The notes below the pieces were generated by a model. That model made no database searches and was not told where the DNA came from. It was given only the letters and a program-made list of their open reading frames with translations. Source: Fidelibacterota bacterium (GTDB lineage: Bacteria; Fidelibacterota; Marinisomatia; SCGC-AAA003-L08; GCA-2689995). Taken from it: a stretch of DNA of 64,000 nt. How positions within the stretch are numbered: position 1 is the first letter of the stretch; every line of letters begins with the position of its first letter. Positions 1 to 14,305 of this stretch are shown piece after piece. The stretch covers positions 16,091 through 80,090 of the forward strand of contig NZIV01000070.1 in the NCBI GenBank assembly GCA_002689995.1. Direction: 5' to 3'. Position numbers and translations under genes: made by a program.

Positions 1-2
1 AT

Positions 3-398
3 ATTAAAGCAATTATAAAAAAATTAAAATTAAAATTTTACGTAAGTGTAAAACCTTTTGAGGGTAAAAGTACATGGGAGTTAGGAAAGTATAGAGTTTT
101 AAAAATATATCCCAAAAAGTGGATATTCTTTAGAAAGAAATTATGCTGTGATTTATTTGTTTATTATAAAGGTGAATATAATGGGGAAGAAGTCTATAAA
201 TATGTTGTTTGGGGTAAAAATGCATTTCATAAAAAGGAGTATTTTGTAAAGACCAAATTAATAGATTTTTATGATAAAATAATTAATATTCCAAATAATT
301 CTGAATCTTTTCTAGAAGTCAAATATGGAAAGGATTGGAATATCCCAAAAGAAATATGGAACGTTGCATTAGATGACGGGTCAATTGTTAGGTCTTAA
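3..398 (+). CDS. LicD-family protein, C-terminal part (5' end outside window)
   Basis: This partial reading frame is open from the window edge and is not in the ORF track. Its 131 visible residues end with 'PNNSESFLEVKYGKDWNIP', preceded by 'IDFYD'. This is the typical C-terminus of LicD/fukutin-type nucleotidyltransferase-fold proteins (pattern V/IPxxxxxxLxxxYGxDWxxP). Family members add phosphocholine or related phospho-substituents to cell-surface glycans. The catalytic N-terminus lies outside the window, so activity cannot be judged. Its stop overlaps the start of the next gene by 26 bases, which suggests translational coupling within the sialic-acid cluster that follows. Confidence 0.7.
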   Translation: MKAIIKKLKLKFYVSVKPFEGKSTWELGKYRVLKIYPKKWIFFRKKLCCDLFVYYKGEYNGEEVYKYVVWGKNAFHKKEYFVKTKLIDFYDKIINIPNNSESFLEVKYGKDWNIPKEIWNVALDDGSIVRS

Positions 399-996
399 TT
401 CAATTCTAATTATTGGTAATAGTCCATCAATACAAAACTTTAATCTAGGAAGTAAAATTGATCAGTTTGAGAATATCGCACGCATTAATAATTTTAAAAC
501 TGTTGGATATGAGAAGTATATTGGCTCTAAGACTTCAATATGGTCAAATGGTGCTAATCAGAATCTAATCAAAAGGACAGAGAAATTTAAAAGTACTATA
601 GTATTTATTCCGCCAAATATACTGAATGAAAAAGGGAATTTAATTCATAAAAGAATTAAAAAAAGGTTGGGTTTAATAAATAGTAATTATGATTTAATTC
701 CAATTGAAAAAATGAAATCTTATGAAAAAAAGTGTGATTGTTCTCGAATTACAACAGGAACAAATACAATATTATGGGCAATAGAAAATTTTGAAAAAGT
801 TGTAATTCATGGATTCGATTTTTTTCAAAATGGTAAAGAACATTATTTTGATGGTAAGTTAAAAAGATGGCTTTTTAATCATAAATGGATGAAGAAAGGT
901 GGAAAACATAATTTAATTCAGGAAAAAAAGTATATTGAAAAATTACTAGAAAATGGAGAAATTATTCAATTAAAGGATATGAAATTTGCTAATTGA
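373..996 (+). CDS. GT29-type sialyltransferase-like glycosyltransferase
   Basis: A 207-aa protein in which all four animal sialyltransferase motifs (family GT29) can be found. Motif L spans about residues 11-58 ('ILIIGNSPSIQNFNLG', 'ARINNF', 'GYEKYIGSKT'). Motif S spans about 126-151 ('ITTGTNTILWA', then 'VVIHGFDFF'). Motif III is 'HYFD' at 157-160. Motif VS (H-x4-E) is 'HNLIQE' at 179-184. In the family, the enzyme transfers sialic acid from CMP-sialate to a glycan. The protein is shorter than animal enzymes and lacks an N-terminal membrane anchor, so a cytosolic, glycan-cluster role is likely. It is followed directly by CMP-sialate synthetase and nonulosonate synthase genes, which could supply its donor. 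The acceptor cannot be told from sequence. The start ATG overlaps the LicD-like gene. Confidence 0.75.
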   Translation: MTGQLLGLNSILIIGNSPSIQNFNLGSKIDQFENIARINNFKTVGYEKYIGSKTSIWSNGANQNLIKRTEKFKSTIVFIPPNILNEKGNLIHKRIKKRLGLINSNYDLIPIEKMKSYEKKCDCSRITTGTNTILWAIENFEKVVIHGFDFFQNGKEHYFDGKLKRWLFNHKWMKKGGKHNLIQEKKYIEKLLENGEIIQLKDMKFAN

Positions 997-1666
997 TACA
1001 ATAGTAATTATACCAGCAAGGGGTGGAAGTAAAGGTATTCCAGGTAAAAATATCAAATTATTTAATGGTATTCCTTTAATTAATTATTCAATTAAATATG
1101 CCTTAAGTGTAATTCCTAATAACCAAATTTATATCTCTACTGATTCTGAAGAAATAAAAGATATAGTTTATGAATTTGGTGTCAAAACAATTGATCGTCC
1201 AGATGAAATTTCAGGAGATATAGCTACTACAGAAAGTGCTATATCTCATGTTCTAAGTTCTATTGATATAAAGCCAAAGAATATTGTTCTACTTCAAGCA
1301 ACAAGTCCATTACGGCCAAAGAATAGTTTAAAAACACTTATTCAATATTTTGAAGAAAATGATTTTGATTCACTTTTAACTATTAGTTCGACGCATCGTT
1401 TTTTTTGGGAATTAGATGGAAAAAATGCTTTACCGCATTATGATTTTGAAAATAGGCCTCGAAGGCAAGATATGAAGGAAGCTGAGATGAAATATATTGA
1501 AAATGGATCTGTATATATGTTTTCTTACAATCATTTTATTGAATATAATAACAGGCTTGGTGGTAAAATAGGATATTATATTTTTCCTGAAGAATGTGCA
1601 TTTGAAATAGATTCAATAAGTGATTGGATAGCACTTGAACAAATCGCAAAATTAAATAAATATTAA
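986..1666 (+). CDS. neuA: CMP-N-acylneuraminate (sialate) cytidylyltransferase
   Basis: A 226-aa enzyme expected to activate a nonulosonic acid with CTP to give the CMP-sugar donor. The N-terminal nucleotide-binding signature 'PARGGSKGIPGKN' is at residues 10-22, followed by 'LLQATSPLRP' and the 'ENGSVYMF' segment typical of NeuA-like rather than KdsB-like synthetases. Size is normal for the catalytic domain alone. The likely start is TTG at 986, because no in-frame ATG precedes the conserved N-terminus. It overlaps the end of the sialyltransferase gene by 11 bases. The substrate could be Neu5Ac, KDN or legionaminic/pseudaminic-type acids; sequence alone does not separate these. Confidence 0.85.
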   Translation: MLIDTIVIIPARGGSKGIPGKNIKLFNGIPLINYSIKYALSVIPNNQIYISTDSEEIKDIVYEFGVKTIDRPDEISGDIATTESAISHVLSSIDIKPKNIVLLQATSPLRPKNSLKTLIQYFEENDFDSLLTISSTHRFFWELDGKNALPHYDFENRPRRQDMKEAEMKYIENGSVYMFSYNHFIEYNNRLGGKIGYYIFPEECAFEIDSISDWIALEQIAKLNKY

Positions 1667-1669
1667 AAA

Positions 1670-2725
1670 ATGAAGAGAAATTTTATATTACCAAATAATA
1701 CTTTAGATAATAATTCTTCAGCATTCATAATAGCTGAAATTGGTATTAATCATCAGGGTAGCATTGATATTGCAAAAAAATTAATTTTACAGGCAAAAGA
1801 CTGTGGCGCTAATGCTGTAAAATTTCAAAAGAGGTCAATTTCTAGAATCTTAACTAAAGAAGGTTTAGAAATGCCATATAAAAATAGAAATAGTTTTGGT
1901 AAAACTTATGGAGAGCATAAATATGCTTTAGAATTATCTAAGGATGATTATAGAGAATTAAAGAAATTTACTGATAATCTTGGACTACTTTTCTCAGCTT
2001 CTGGATGGGATGAAGAAAGTATAGATTTCTTAATGGAAATTGATGTCCCATTTTTTAAAATGGCATCTGCTGATTTATCTAATTTCCCATTATTAGAGCA
2101 TACGGCTAAAACGGGAAAACCAATTATTCTCTCTACTGGTATGGCAGACATGGAATTAGTTAAAAAAGCTGTAGATTTGGTCTCAAAGTTCAATTCCAAT
2201 ATTGCAATTTTACAATGTACTTCAACTTATCCTGCTCAGTTTAATGAAATTAATTTAAATGTAATAAGAACTTACTTAGATATATTTCCTAAATATGTAA
2301 TTGGATATTCTGGGCATGAATTAGGAATTGCTATCTCAGGAGTTGCTGTTGCACTTGGTGCAAAAATTATAGAAAGACACTTTACATTAGACAGAACAAT
2401 GAAAGGTGGTGACCATGCAGCTTCATTAGAGCCACACGGTTTTTCAAAAATGGTAAGAGATATTCGTCATATAGAAGGTGCAATGGGTATTAGAGAAAAA
2501 GAATTACAAGAATCTGAAAAACCAATTTTTAAAAAATTAGCAAAAAGTATAGTAACATCTAAAAATATAAAAAAAGGTGAGAAAATTAAGTCTGATATGC
2601 TAACAACAAAAGGTCCTGGTAGTGGTATTTCTCCTACTAAGTTTAATGATATTATCGGTAAATCTTTGAATAAAGATGTCTCAATTGATGTGATAATTAA
2701 AGATGAAGATATAATTTGGAGTTAA
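1670..2725 (+). CDS. neuB: N-acylneuraminate (9-phosphate) synthase, NeuB/NANS family
   Basis: A 351-aa enzyme that condenses phosphoenolpyruvate with an N-acylmannosamine or its 6-phosphate. Visible motifs are 'IAEIGINHQG' (residues 21-30), 'VKFQKR', 'FFKMASAD', 'GYSGHELGIAIS' (around 211) and 'HAASLEP' (around 250). A C-terminal SAF/antifreeze-like domain (about 285-351) begins near 'KSIVTSKNIKKGEKI'. Segments such as 'KTYGEHKYALELS' and 'KGGDHAASLEP' resemble, from memory, the animal sialate-9-phosphate synthase (NANS) more than classical bacterial NeuB. Together with the phosphatase encoded 2 bases downstream, this suggests a 9-phosphate product. No 2-epimerase (NeuC-like) gene is in the window. 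The start is ATG, 3 bases after the neuA stop. Confidence 0.87.
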   Translation: MKRNFILPNNTLDNNSSAFIIAEIGINHQGSIDIAKKLILQAKDCGANAVKFQKRSISRILTKEGLEMPYKNRNSFGKTYGEHKYALELSKDDYRELKKFTDNLGLLFSASGWDEESIDFLMEIDVPFFKMASADLSNFPLLEHTAKTGKPIILSTGMADMELVKKAVDLVSKFNSNIAILQCTSTYPAQFNEINLNVIRTYLDIFPKYVIGYSGHELGIAISGVAVALGAKIIERHFTLDRTMKGGDHAASLEPHGFSKMVRDIRHIEGAMGIREKELQESEKPIFKKLAKSIVTSKNIKKGEKIKSDMLTTKGPGSGISPTKFNDIIGKSLNKDVSIDVIIKDEDIIWS

Positions 2726-2726
2726 T

Positions 2727-3212
2727 GTGTCAATTTCTAAAAAAGCAAAAAAAATAAAATTAATTGGTACAGATATTGATGGTGTTTGGACAAATGGTAC
2801 TATGTTTTATTCACCAAATGGTGACTATATGAAGGCTTTTTCAACTTATGATGGTATGGCCGTCGAAGTCTTAAAAGAAGCTGGTTTAGATGTTCTAATT
2901 ATGACTGGTGAAAATTCTGAAATGGTTCGTAAAAGAGCGGAAAAACTAAATATTAATAAAGTTTACCTAGGTGAGAAAGAAAAGCTTAAACGGCTAAAAT
3001 ATATTTGTTCTCGATTTGAATATGAATTAGATGAAATTGCTTATATAGGTGATGATATAAATGATTTTGAAGTTTTGAAAGTTGTTGGTTTATCTGCAAT
3101 GCCATCCTCAAGCCCAGTATTACATAAGTTCACTCCAGATATAGTTACAAATCGAGGAGGTGGTGAGGGTGCTTTTAGAGAATTTGTAGAAGAAATTTTA
3201 GCTTATCATTAA
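2727..3212 (+). CDS. C0-type HAD phosphatase (KdsC-like), probable nonulosonate-9-phosphate phosphatase
   Basis: A 161-aa capless HAD phosphatase. The nucleophile motif is 'GTDIDGVWTNG', with catalytic Asp pair 16/18. Motif II lies near 'IMTGENSE', and motif III 'YIGDDINDFE' is toward the C-terminus. KdsC enzymes usually have Arg after the motif II Gly ('TGR'); here it is Glu62, with Lys at 73. As I recall, the KDN-9-phosphate phosphatase of Bacteroides thetaiotaomicron has the same Glu/Lys pair with the same 11-residue spacing. Its position next to neuA and neuB supports dephosphorylation of a sialate-9-phosphate rather than KDO-8-phosphate. The start is GTG at 2727, one base after the neuB stop codon. 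It is the last gene of the plus-strand cluster. Confidence 0.78.
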   Translation: MSISKKAKKIKLIGTDIDGVWTNGTMFYSPNGDYMKAFSTYDGMAVEVLKEAGLDVLIMTGENSEMVRKRAEKLNINKVYLGEKEKLKRLKYICSRFEYELDEIAYIGDDINDFEVLKVVGLSAMPSSSPVLHKFTPDIVTNRGGGEGAFREFVEEILAYH

Positions 3213-4897: not shown

Positions 4898-6634
<1,737 letters not shown>

Positions 6635-8026
6635 ATGATAAAACTAATTTTAGTAATTATATTTAGCTTAATATTATCTCAGGAATTTATAACAGAATAT
6701 CTTGTTATTAATGAAGATACACTTGATAACTTTGTATATCAATTACCCTTATCTTTAGATAGTCCTGCACCTTTAATTGTTGTATTTCATCAATGGGGAG
6801 GTTCTGCAATATCTACAATTGGTACTGAATTTGATAACCAAGCTTTTGCTCGTGGATGGTACTTTTTATCTCCATGGGGTGGCTCTTCAAATAATTATAA
6901 TCATCAACAGGCACAATATTTATGGGAACAAGAAATATTATGGATGATGGAACGATTTAATATTGATTCTAAGAGAATTTATATGGTTGGAGGGTCAATG
7001 GGAGGTGCCTCTGGGGCAATTTATGCTAATAATCATTTAGATCCAAATAAGCCAATGGTTGCTGCAACAGCATCTGCATCTGGTATTTTAGACTGCGAAA
7101 GAAGATATTATGAAATGAATGGAAATAATAGTATGACTGAATGGTTTGGTGGATCACCTGAAGAAGTACCTTTTGAATACCATAGGAATAGTGCAGTATT
7201 TTTTGGAGATAGTAATCATAGTATGCACAAAAATCTAATTAATACACCTTTATATTTAGATTTTGGGGCGACTGAACCACATAGAGGACATGCAGAAGAC
7301 TTATATAATTTGCTTTTAGGTGAACATGATAATATGTGGATTGAAACAAGCTCATTAAATGGGCATGGATTTCCAGTAATTGATGAAGTACATGTTTGTG
7401 ATTGGTTCTCTCAATTCGAGTTAGTTACAAATCCAAATATAGTAAATGTGAATTTAGATGAACCAGGTAGAGCTTATTGGGCTGAAGCCATAAACATAGA
7501 AAACGAAAGAAATTTTATAAAATTATTTGTTGAAAAAGAATTTGAAGATTTTATGGATATTGGTTATAATAATTTCACTCGAATTGAATTAAATAATTAT
7601 GAGAATTCTGATTCATTATTATTACATATTATTGATTTCAAAGTTGATTTCTTACAAATTAATTGTAATTATGAATTAAGTAATTTAAATATTGGAATTA
7701 CTGGTCCTCTGATAAACTTTGTTGAATATTATGAAGTTTCTACTCCTGTATTAACTCAACAATTTAATGTTCAAAATGGGATAATATGGACGAATAGTGA
7801 TGATTTAGGATTTGAAGATTTTGTGAATAATTACCGTTTTTATTATTCTGTAAATGATATTAACTTTGATTTTATTTGGGATGTTACTGATATAATATTA
7901 ACTTCAAATCATATTCTTGGAAATGAAATATTAAATGAGTATCAACTGAGTTTTGCAGATTTAAATCAAGACTATTTAATTAATATAATTGATATCTTAT
8001 TTATAGTTGATTTAGTCATAAACTAG
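6635..8026 (+). CDS. secreted alpha/beta-hydrolase (PHB depolymerase/feruloyl-esterase-like) with dockerin-like tail
   Basis: A 463-aa exported protein. The signal peptide is 'MIKLILVIIFSLILSQ'. The hydrolase domain (about residues 25-270) has an oxyanion-type 'FHQWGG' (51-56), a nucleophile elbow 'GGSMGG' with Ser121, and a probable catalytic His in 'GHGFP'. This layout matches LpqC/PHB-depolymerase-like esterases, with substrate unknown. A middle beta-rich domain follows. The C-terminus carries two dockerin-like Ca-binding repeats, 'FDFIWDVTDIILTSNHIL' and 'ADLNQDYLINIIDIL', of the kind also found on the protease at 13.2-14.3 kb and the protein at 57-59 kb. The tail suggests attachment to a surface scaffold or sorting. 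It is a single gene flanked by minus-strand genes. Confidence 0.75.
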   Translation: MIKLILVIIFSLILSQEFITEYLVINEDTLDNFVYQLPLSLDSPAPLIVVFHQWGGSAISTIGTEFDNQAFARGWYFLSPWGGSSNNYNHQQAQYLWEQEILWMMERFNIDSKRIYMVGGSMGGASGAIYANNHLDPNKPMVAATASASGILDCERRYYEMNGNNSMTEWFGGSPEEVPFEYHRNSAVFFGDSNHSMHKNLINTPLYLDFGATEPHRGHAEDLYNLLLGEHDNMWIETSSLNGHGFPVIDEVHVCDWFSQFELVTNPNIVNVNLDEPGRAYWAEAINIENERNFIKLFVEKEFEDFMDIGYNNFTRIELNNYENSDSLLLHIIDFKVDFLQINCNYELSNLNIGITGPLINFVEYYEVSTPVLTQQFNVQNGIIWTNSDDLGFEDFVNNYRFYYSVNDINFDFIWDVTDIILTSNHILGNEILNEYQLSFADLNQDYLINIIDILFIVDLVIN

Positions 8027-13225: not shown

Positions 13226-14305
13226 CTAGTTTTGATTTGGATTTAAAACTAAATTAACTAAGTTAACGATATCAAGTACGTTTAGTATGGCATCATTATT
13301 AATATCTCCAAAAAAGATATCATTATTATTTTGTGAACTTGGGGATAAAACTAAGTTCACTAAATTTACTATATCTAGTATGTTAATGATTTCATCGTTA
13401 TTAATATCTCCAATAAGGTATTCACAACAGTCATAAGTACCATTTTCGCAGCCATCAAAGTCCTCATTATAATTAATTGCATATGAATCATTACAACCAT
13501 AATTTAAGTTTATAGGATCACCAATATAGTTAAAAAACCAGTCAAGCTGACTAAATACCTTAGCATAAACACCAGGATAACCAGCCTGTGCGCAACCATA
13601 ACCCCAACTTACAACTCCTATTAACTCAAATTCATTGTTACTATTAGTCATTATTAATGGTCCACCTGAATCTCCTTGACAGCTATCTTCTCCACCATTG
13701 GAATCGCCTGCACAAACCATATTAGAGGTTATTTCGTTATTTGAATAGTATCCACATGAATTATCTACAGGTACATCTACTTCTAATAAGATATCAGACC
13801 CCCAACCTCCTGAATAGGTAGCACCCCAGCCCATTGTAGTAGATGTCACAGGCTCATCATCATGAGAATTATTTGTAATCAATTGTATTGGTTCAAAATT
13901 AGAGTTAGATGTTAGATGCAATAGAGCATAATCGTTGTTCATAGAGCTACTATTATAGTTTGGATGGATAATGATTTGATCAACATATTTTGTTTCTGAA
14001 CCAGTTGTCCCATTTACGTTATGCAAGCCTAGTTTCACTCTGAGATTACTTGCGGATTCTCCTTGCACACAATGTGCTGCAGTAATTACCCAATCAGGTC
14101 TTACTAAAGAGCCACCACAGAAATGTCCACCCCAGTTTGATTGAATTGAGGCCATGAATGGATATTTACAATTAGGACATGCGGGGTTTACAGGATCACC
14201 TCCAACAATATATGGTGCAGGATAATCTCCTGGAAGCTTATTTAAAGCTTCTTCAGTTTCGGTAATTGAAAAAGAAACGAAAAGTATAAATAAATATAAT
14301 TTCAT
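13226..14305 (-). CDS. secreted trypsin-like (S1) serine protease with two dockerin-like repeats
   Basis: A 359-aa exported protease. After a short signal peptide ('MKLYLFILFVSFSITE') the mature N-terminus 'IVGGDPV' begins at about residue 33. The catalytic triad is present: His78 in 'ITAAHC', Asp in 'NNDYALLHL' and Ser in 'DSCQGDSGGPL'. The Asp six residues before the Ser predicts cleavage after Lys/Arg. The residue before IVGG is Tyr, not Lys/Arg, so activation would not be by a trypsin-like cut. Six or more Cys suggest disulfides. The C-terminus has two near-identical dockerin-like units, 'GDINNDEIINILDIVNLVN' and 'GDINNDAILNVLDIVNLVN'. S1 proteases of this animal-like form are uncommon in bacteria but recur in marine groups. 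Confidence 0.9.
   Translation of the reverse strand: MKLYLFILFVSFSITETEEALNKLPGDYPAPYIVGGDPVNPACPNCKYPFMASIQSNWGGHFCGGSLVRPDWVITAAHCVQGESASNLRVKLGLHNVNGTTGSETKYVDQIIIHPNYNSSSMNNDYALLHLTSNSNFEPIQLITNNSHDDEPVTSTTMGWGATYSGGWGSDILLEVDVPVDNSCGYYSNNEITSNMVCAGDSNGGEDSCQGDSGGPLIMTNSNNEFELIGVVSWGYGCAQAGYPGVYAKVFSQLDWFFNYIGDPINLNYGCNDSYAINYNEDFDGCENGTYDCCEYLIGDINNDEIINILDIVNLVNLVLSPSSQNNNDIFFGDINNDAILNVLDIVNLVNLVLNPNQN

Follow-up and report, generated by a model that had tools for sequence, protein, structure and literature searches.

A small bacterial GT29 glycosyltransferase in a nonulosonate operon, and a possible replacement of Kdo in lipopolysaccharide

The GT29 gene at the start of the window

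The window, which is the whole stretch of 64,000 nucleotides analysed here, comes from contig C41 of a Fidelibacterota genome and carries the following features at its start.

1..398, + strand: 3′ part of a gene for a LicD-family phosphotransferase (whole gene C41:15430-16488, start outside the window; Pfam LicD 3.4e-12 for the whole protein)
373..996, + strand: GT29 glycosyltransferase, predicted nonulosonate transferase (207 aa, ATG start, no membrane anchor; PF00777 E 2e-16)
403..543, + strand: sialylmotif L (aa 11-57, ILIIGNS...RINNF...GSKTSIW; aligns with motif L of ST3Gal1)
745..825, + strand: sialylmotif S (aa 125-151, RITTGTNTILWAIENFEKVVIHGFDFF, that is RITTG...VVIHGFDFF; aligns with ST3Gal1 and CstII)
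841..852, + strand: sialylmotif III (aa 157-160, HYFD; opposite HHYWEN of ST3Gal1 in the alignment; no His at this place in CstII)
907..924, + strand: sialylmotif VS (aa 179-184, HNLIQE, pattern HxxxxE; its His aligned with a conserved His of ST3Gal1 and CstII)
986..1666, + strand: CMP-nonulosonate (NeuA/CMAS-like) cytidylyltransferase, 226 aa (PF02348 2e-29; best solved relative mouse CMAS, 1qwj, 3e-29)
1670..2725, + strand: NeuB-family nonulosonate synthase with a SAF domain, 351 aa (PF03102 5.8e-81, SAF 7.9e-7; alignment to 1xuu/4ipi)
2727..3212, + strand: HAD phosphatase of the Kdn-9-phosphate phosphatase type, 161 aa (NCBIfam NF058599 181.2 bits, cut-off 180)

The GT29 reading frame overlaps the LicD gene on its 5′ side by 26 bp, and the adjacency of the two genes is kept in most related loci. 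A second GT29 gene (GT29b) is found on the same contig, on the reverse strand about 8 kb upstream (C41:8044-8637). When the protein of 373-996 was scanned against Pfam, PF00777 matched with 60.6 bits (cut-off 23) over profile positions 59-271 of 272, and no unrelated glycosyltransferase profile scored above GT29. The PF00777 profile search of 14 control genomes gave 0 matches.

The original prediction assigned this protein to GT29 and placed motifs L, S, III and VS in that order within 207 aa, and both statements were confirmed, the first by the PF00777 score together with the fold matches described below, the second by 30 aligned homologs of the same phylum. In this alignment N16, R37-N40, G51 and W57 of motif L, T127-T128-G129, H146-G147 and D149-F151 of motif S, H157-Y158 of motif III, and H179 and E184 of motif VS were invariant, so that the His and Glu of the last motif are kept in all close homologs. 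Such invariance indicates that the motifs are far beyond chance, and His179 is the putative catalytic base. No conserved Cys corresponding to the disulfide between motifs L and S of the animal enzymes was found among the 30 homologs. The suggestion of a small enzyme without a membrane anchor also held, as motif L begins at residue 11 of 207, and neither this protein nor the 30 homologs had an N-terminal transmembrane anchor or stem.

The AlphaFold model of the protein had a mean pLDDT of 89.4, and its top 30 fold matches in the PDB were all GT29, the best being ST3Gal1 (2wml, E 6e-8, TM 0.67). GT42 CstII (1ro7) is related to the protein in fold and shares with it the region of motif S and the catalytic His, but lacks the His-Tyr of motif III, and its fold match (3.8e-4) was weaker than all the GT29 matches. 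The family profile of the window protein, by comparison, matched ST3Gal1 (2.4e-7) and CstII (4.8e-7) about equally well, which could be taken to mean that it is a divergent, CstII-like GT42 sialyltransferase that Pfam puts in GT29. We give this reading hardly any weight, because the GT42 family (CST-I) did not appear in the Pfam scan of the protein at E up to 0.1, and the ranking of the folds and the His-Tyr of motif III, common to GT29, oppose it as well; a GT42 origin was rejected on these grounds. Given the near-equal profile scores, the family may stand near the base of the relationship between GT29 and GT42.

On the evidence of its sequence, the gene codes for a small bacterial protein of GT29, the family of the animal sialyltransferases. 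The protein shares the fold, the motifs, the His-Tyr of motif III and the His...Glu of motif VS with animal enzymes such as ST3Gal1 (2wml) and ST8Sia3 (5bo9). Unlike these, which are about 300 aa or longer and have a stem, a transmembrane helix and a disulfide, it has 207 aa and none of these elements. Bacterial GT29 proteins without a membrane anchor or the L-S disulfide were already described by Petit et al. in 2018 (PMC5811610), and those proteins are alike in having the four sialylmotifs and in coming from marine Gram-negatives. Their set comprised 23 sequences, mainly from alpha-proteobacteria, without operon or pathway context, whereas the present family occurs in Neomarinimicrobiota, Cloacimonadota, Fibrobacterota and others and is tied to an operon of NeuA, NeuB, HAD phosphatase and WaaA. 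For the question of the origin of GT29, we rely on the same published analysis (PMC5811610).

Further into the window, two secreted proteins, one esterase-like (6635-8026) and one trypsin-like (13226-14305), each end in a dockerin-like repeat (DINxDxxINIxDIxxLVxLVL), as read from the sequence. GT29-like genes were also seen in IMG/VR viral contigs (L069, L070, L072, L073, L075 and L076), where NeuA comes next and NeuB lies beyond a gap; the viral proteins have 28-34% identity to the window protein.

The sugar pathway of the operon

That mouse CMAS is the closest solved relative of the window NeuA is in keeping with a Kdn-type supply. With PseF, NeuA scored below the cut-off, and it does not fix the substrate. 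Meningococcal NeuB carries Arg314 in the sequence KRPG, and this residue contacts the N-acetyl group of ManNAc. It is the residue altered in PDB entries 4ipi and 4ipj. The window NeuB has KGPG at this position, and so did all the operon NeuB proteins examined.

The phosphatase scored 181 bits as a Kdn-9-phosphate phosphatase versus 128 bits for the KdsC family, although it exceeded the cut-off of the former model by 1 bit only, and the second copy (HADb) stayed below it with 174.4 bits. Its closest solved relative is the 3e81 family (BT1713). Glu56 and Lys67, the residues changed in the deposited mutants 4hgq and 4hgr, are both kept in the window HAD and in those operon HADs whose motif could be read. 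According to PMC6200933, a 9-phosphate Kdn route is proved in B. thetaiotaomicron and Prymnesium. The Kdn pathway of B. thetaiotaomicron (BT1713 phosphatase, BT1714 synthase), as cited there, resembles the present one in the 9-phosphate route, in the specificity residues of the phosphatase and in passing the Kdn-9-phosphate phosphatase model. It differs in that the genes described here share a single operon with GT29 and WaaA, and no Kdo genes were detected in the genomes concerned.

In a profile search of the window's genome, the ManNAc-6-phosphate epimerase NanE was not found, and a convincing NanE was present in only 1 of the 32 genomes with GT29. Judged from these sequences, the operon route is a phosphorylated, 9-phosphate nonulosonate pathway that is Kdn-type and not clearly one for Neu5Ac. 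The model matched by the HAD phosphatase, a NeuB without Arg314 and the missing epimerase make CMP-Kdn the likelier donor of GT29 than CMP-Neu5Ac. The idea that a sialate operon supplies the donor therefore stood only in part: a nonulosonate operon providing a CMP-activated donor is present, and the same three observations speak against its being specifically Neu5Ac.

Kdn-9-phosphate phosphatases may accept Neu5Ac-9-phosphate as well, and this leaves room for an operon that makes CMP-Neu5Ac from ManNAc-6-phosphate by the animal-like 9-phosphate route. GT29 would then be a terminal sialyltransferase acting on the outer core, O-antigen or capsule, and its link to WaaA would reflect general clustering of LPS genes. 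The best NCBIfam model for NeuB is NeuB_NnaB, mouse CMAS is nearest to NeuA, and CMP-Neu5Ac is the donor of the characterised animal GT29 enzymes, all of which agree with this scheme. It is nevertheless weakened, as a pure Neu5Ac operon, by the phosphatase model, by the lack of Arg314 in every operon NeuB and by the near absence of NanE, and we consider it unlikely.

A classical NeuB and NeuA with NeuC are encoded on contig C30 of the window's genome, indicating that another nonulosonate could be made in this genome. In this cluster (L085, 7122-10928) NeuB reads VRRPG, with the Arg kept, and a 279-aa ORF with ANGPS and GLDFDYP stretches resembles a GT42-type transferase. The contig, 13.8 kb long, may be a contaminant. 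Among related loci, a 651-aa protein of the sulfatase superfamily, possibly a phosphoethanolamine transferase, is encoded between NeuA and NeuB in L097 (4452-6404), and unassigned ORFs of the same size are found there in L098 and L099.

WaaA loci and Kdo genes across the phylum

The operon in the window has no WaaA of its own; the WaaA genes of this genome are in the second GT29 locus, about 8-9 kb upstream, and on contig C26. The second locus (L005, contig C41, 4936-8637, reverse strand) reads GT29b-NeuA-HAD-WaaA-DUF3108-like, without NeuB and with its WaaA at 5631-6863, a layout nearly identical to that of genome G172 (L109). Profile searches of the window's genome gave no KdsA, no KdsB over the cut-off and only weak matches to KdsD, while LpxC was found at C26:17334 (7.7e-87) beside the two WaaA genes. 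Because the second GT29 locus ends in WaaA and the genome has no KdsA or over-threshold KdsB, we compared genomes across the phylum.

GT29 was present in 32 of 245 genomes of Ca. Neomarinimicrobiota/Fidelibacterota, which means that it is not rare in this phylum. The picture of GT29 as a mainly eukaryotic family, given in the original prediction, needs correcting in view of this count and of the bacterial GT29 reported from Proteobacteria in 2018 (PMC5811610). The loci of the GT29 relatives were mostly from Ca. Neomarinimicrobiota (Fidelibacterota in the taxonomy of the tree), with single loci titled Cloacimonadota, Eisenbacteria, Chitinispirillum (Fibrobacterota) and Gemmatimonadetes.

KdsA (E < 1e-40) was detected in 0 of the 32 GT29 genomes versus 163 of the 213 others (Fisher 5e-18), and KdsD in 0 of 32 versus 154 of 213 (Fisher 3e-16); both tests ignore relatedness, and members of a single clade do not count as independent samples. 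LpxC was present in 32/32 and WaaA in 30/32 of the same GT29 genomes, indicating that LPS is still made. Families f28, f30 and f31 gave weaker matches to the KdsA profile (3e-33 to 2e-36), which we read as DAHP synthases: they fall well under the cut-off, and KdsA-less controls match likewise.

Gene absence was judged here by profile searches, and many of the genomes are incomplete, fragmented bins; the window's own genome has 7.3% contamination. The absence of KdsA and KdsD and their link to GT29 could thus be artefacts of incomplete or contaminated bins. This explanation is highly improbable, because among the 14 GT29 genomes that are at least 90% complete KdsA was found in none, LpxC in all and WaaA in nearly all, and because the pattern tracks whole families and the WaaA tree.

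We compared WaaA-centred regions from KdsA-less genomes (19 loci) with 20 controls, 19 of which came from genomes with KdsA and the remaining one, G115, from a genome with KdsD. A gene like that of the Kdn-9-phosphate phosphatase immediately preceded WaaA in 16 of the 19 loci without KdsA and in 0 of the 20 controls. NeuB was present in 13 of these 16 loci, NeuA usually and GT29 often. Three loci departed from this: L108, with the second WaaA copy of the window's genome; L094, whose WaaA is very divergent; and L101, from genome G195, in which KdsD and a Kdo-type WaaA are present. Viewed from the GT29 side, 21 of the 34 named loci had WaaA beside GT29, NeuA and HAD, most of them with NeuB, and many of the others stop at a contig edge. 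The order GT29-NeuA-NeuB-HAD-WaaA recurs in Cloacimonadota (L037), and Chitinispirillum (L046) has these genes next to one another in convergent orientation. As an additional observation, a gene for a 23S rRNA-intervening-sequence protein lies within the NeuB-HAD-WaaA operon of L107 (4918-5385), and ORFs of similar size are found there in L105 and L106. The confinement of the operon to KdsA-less genomes also argues against a Neu5Ac operon joined to WaaA by general clustering, which gives no account of it. Beyond what the original prediction described, GT29 stands in a setting of LPS inner-core assembly, in lineages where no Kdo pathway was detected.

The WaaA proteins of the operon formed their own clade (support 100/99), apart from the WaaA of genomes with KdsA, and the second WaaA copy of the window's genome fell within it. 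In family f18, the WaaA of G129 and G131 belonged to the operon clade and those of their family mates to the other, as expected if the gene set moves horizontally or was swapped. Common to both clades are A59, S60, G62 and E63 of the core (own numbering). The operon clade has fixed differences from the other: R129, N151 and N153 are invariant and H130 replaces Tyr. Compared with the Kdo transferase WaaA/KdtA (2xci), the operon WaaA belongs to the same family and has the conserved SxGE core; it differs in its separate clade, its fixed differences and its occurrence in genomes without KdsA and KdsD, and its donor is presumed to be a nonulosonate.

The retention of WaaA, inside the operon, could also mean that NeuB, HAD and NeuA are non-orthologous replacements of KdsA, KdsC and KdsB and still yield CMP-Kdo for a usual WaaA. 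The HAD enzyme is of the KdsC fold family, and GT29 would be a second Kdo transferase, similar to plant GT29, for which Petit et al. (PMC5811610) proposed a shift to Kdo transfer. However, the arabinose-5-phosphate isomerase KdsD was not found in the same genomes, indicating that the Kdo precursor is lacking and weakening the case for Kdo made by another route in the operon. The scores of the HAD as a Kdn-9-phosphate phosphatase and as a KdsC, its Glu56 and Lys67, and the fixed differences that set the operon WaaA apart from the Kdo-type clade point in the same direction. We therefore regard this possibility as quite improbable.

A proposed nonulosonate in place of Kdo

Kdo is regarded as the defining and nearly invariant link of lipid A to the rest of LPS. 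The substitutes for it that we met in the literature consulted were close Kdo derivatives (Kdo8N, Ko), and literature searches gave nothing relevant on Kdn or any sialic-acid-type sugar replacing Kdo, nor on sialic acid in Marinimicrobia. The occurrence of the operon only where Kdo genes were not found suggests that a nine-carbon, sialic-acid-like sugar, probably Kdn, is used for Kdo in this LPS.

If the enzymes act as their families predict, NeuB would use PEP and a hexose-6-phosphate, with Man-6-phosphate favoured, to form a nonulosonate-9-phosphate, which the HAD enzyme would dephosphorylate and NeuA would convert to the CMP-sugar. The operon-type WaaA would place the first nonulosonate residue, instead of Kdo, onto lipid A, and GT29 would add a further residue with His179 acting as the base. 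A phospho- or phosphono-substituent may come from LicD and the upstream nucleotidyltransferases. Many genomes with the NeuB-HAD-WaaA operon lack GT29, so that this gene is accessory; its presence in only part of the operon lineages, beside LicD and nucleotidyltransferases, is the reason to place it as an extension enzyme and not as the first transferase. In genome G171 (L095, 1297-3746), a PEP mutase with a cytidylyltransferase domain and a TPP enzyme are encoded between a nucleotidyltransferase and LicD, which suggests an aminoethylphosphonate-type group on the core.

We consider it probable that GT29 is a cytoplasmic transferase that uses a CMP-activated nonulosonic acid, most probably Kdn, and passes the sugar to the LPS inner core of a Kdo-less lineage. 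A Gal-terminated glycan as acceptor, as in animal GT29, is unlikely. The inner core of Loktanella consists of ulosonic acids only, with Neu linked 2->8 to Kdo (PMC3210612), and this genus is one in which Petit et al. found GT29 (PMC5811610). Such an all-ulosonate core supports an inner-core ulosonate as the acceptor of GT29. The Loktanella core is similar to the one proposed here in having inner-core ulosonates beyond that of WaaA and differs in retaining Kdo. In Acinetobacter, a separate enzyme, KdoT, adds further Kdo (PMC12856342); it likewise provides an inner-core ulosonate beyond that of WaaA, but has a GT-B fold and uses CMP-Kdo as donor.

The wider proposal is that several lineages of Neomarinimicrobiota, and probably some of Cloacimonadota and Fibrobacterota, swapped Kdo for Kdn by means of a transferable operon of NeuA, NeuB, Kdn-9-phosphate phosphatase and WaaA, with GT29 extending the core, and to this we assign an even chance. 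Such a swap would show as an exchange of gene sets that tracks the WaaA phylogeny. If true, the change from Kdo to a nonulosonate would add a new LPS chemotype, in an ocean phylum that is abundant and uncultured. Bacterial GT29, thought to be the source of the animal sialyltransferases, would gain a concrete native job and, in the case of a swap from Kdo to Kdn, a role in the assembly of the LPS core that is ancestral. With small, anchor-less enzymes, the step from the sialylation of LPS ulosonates to that of glycans would become approachable.
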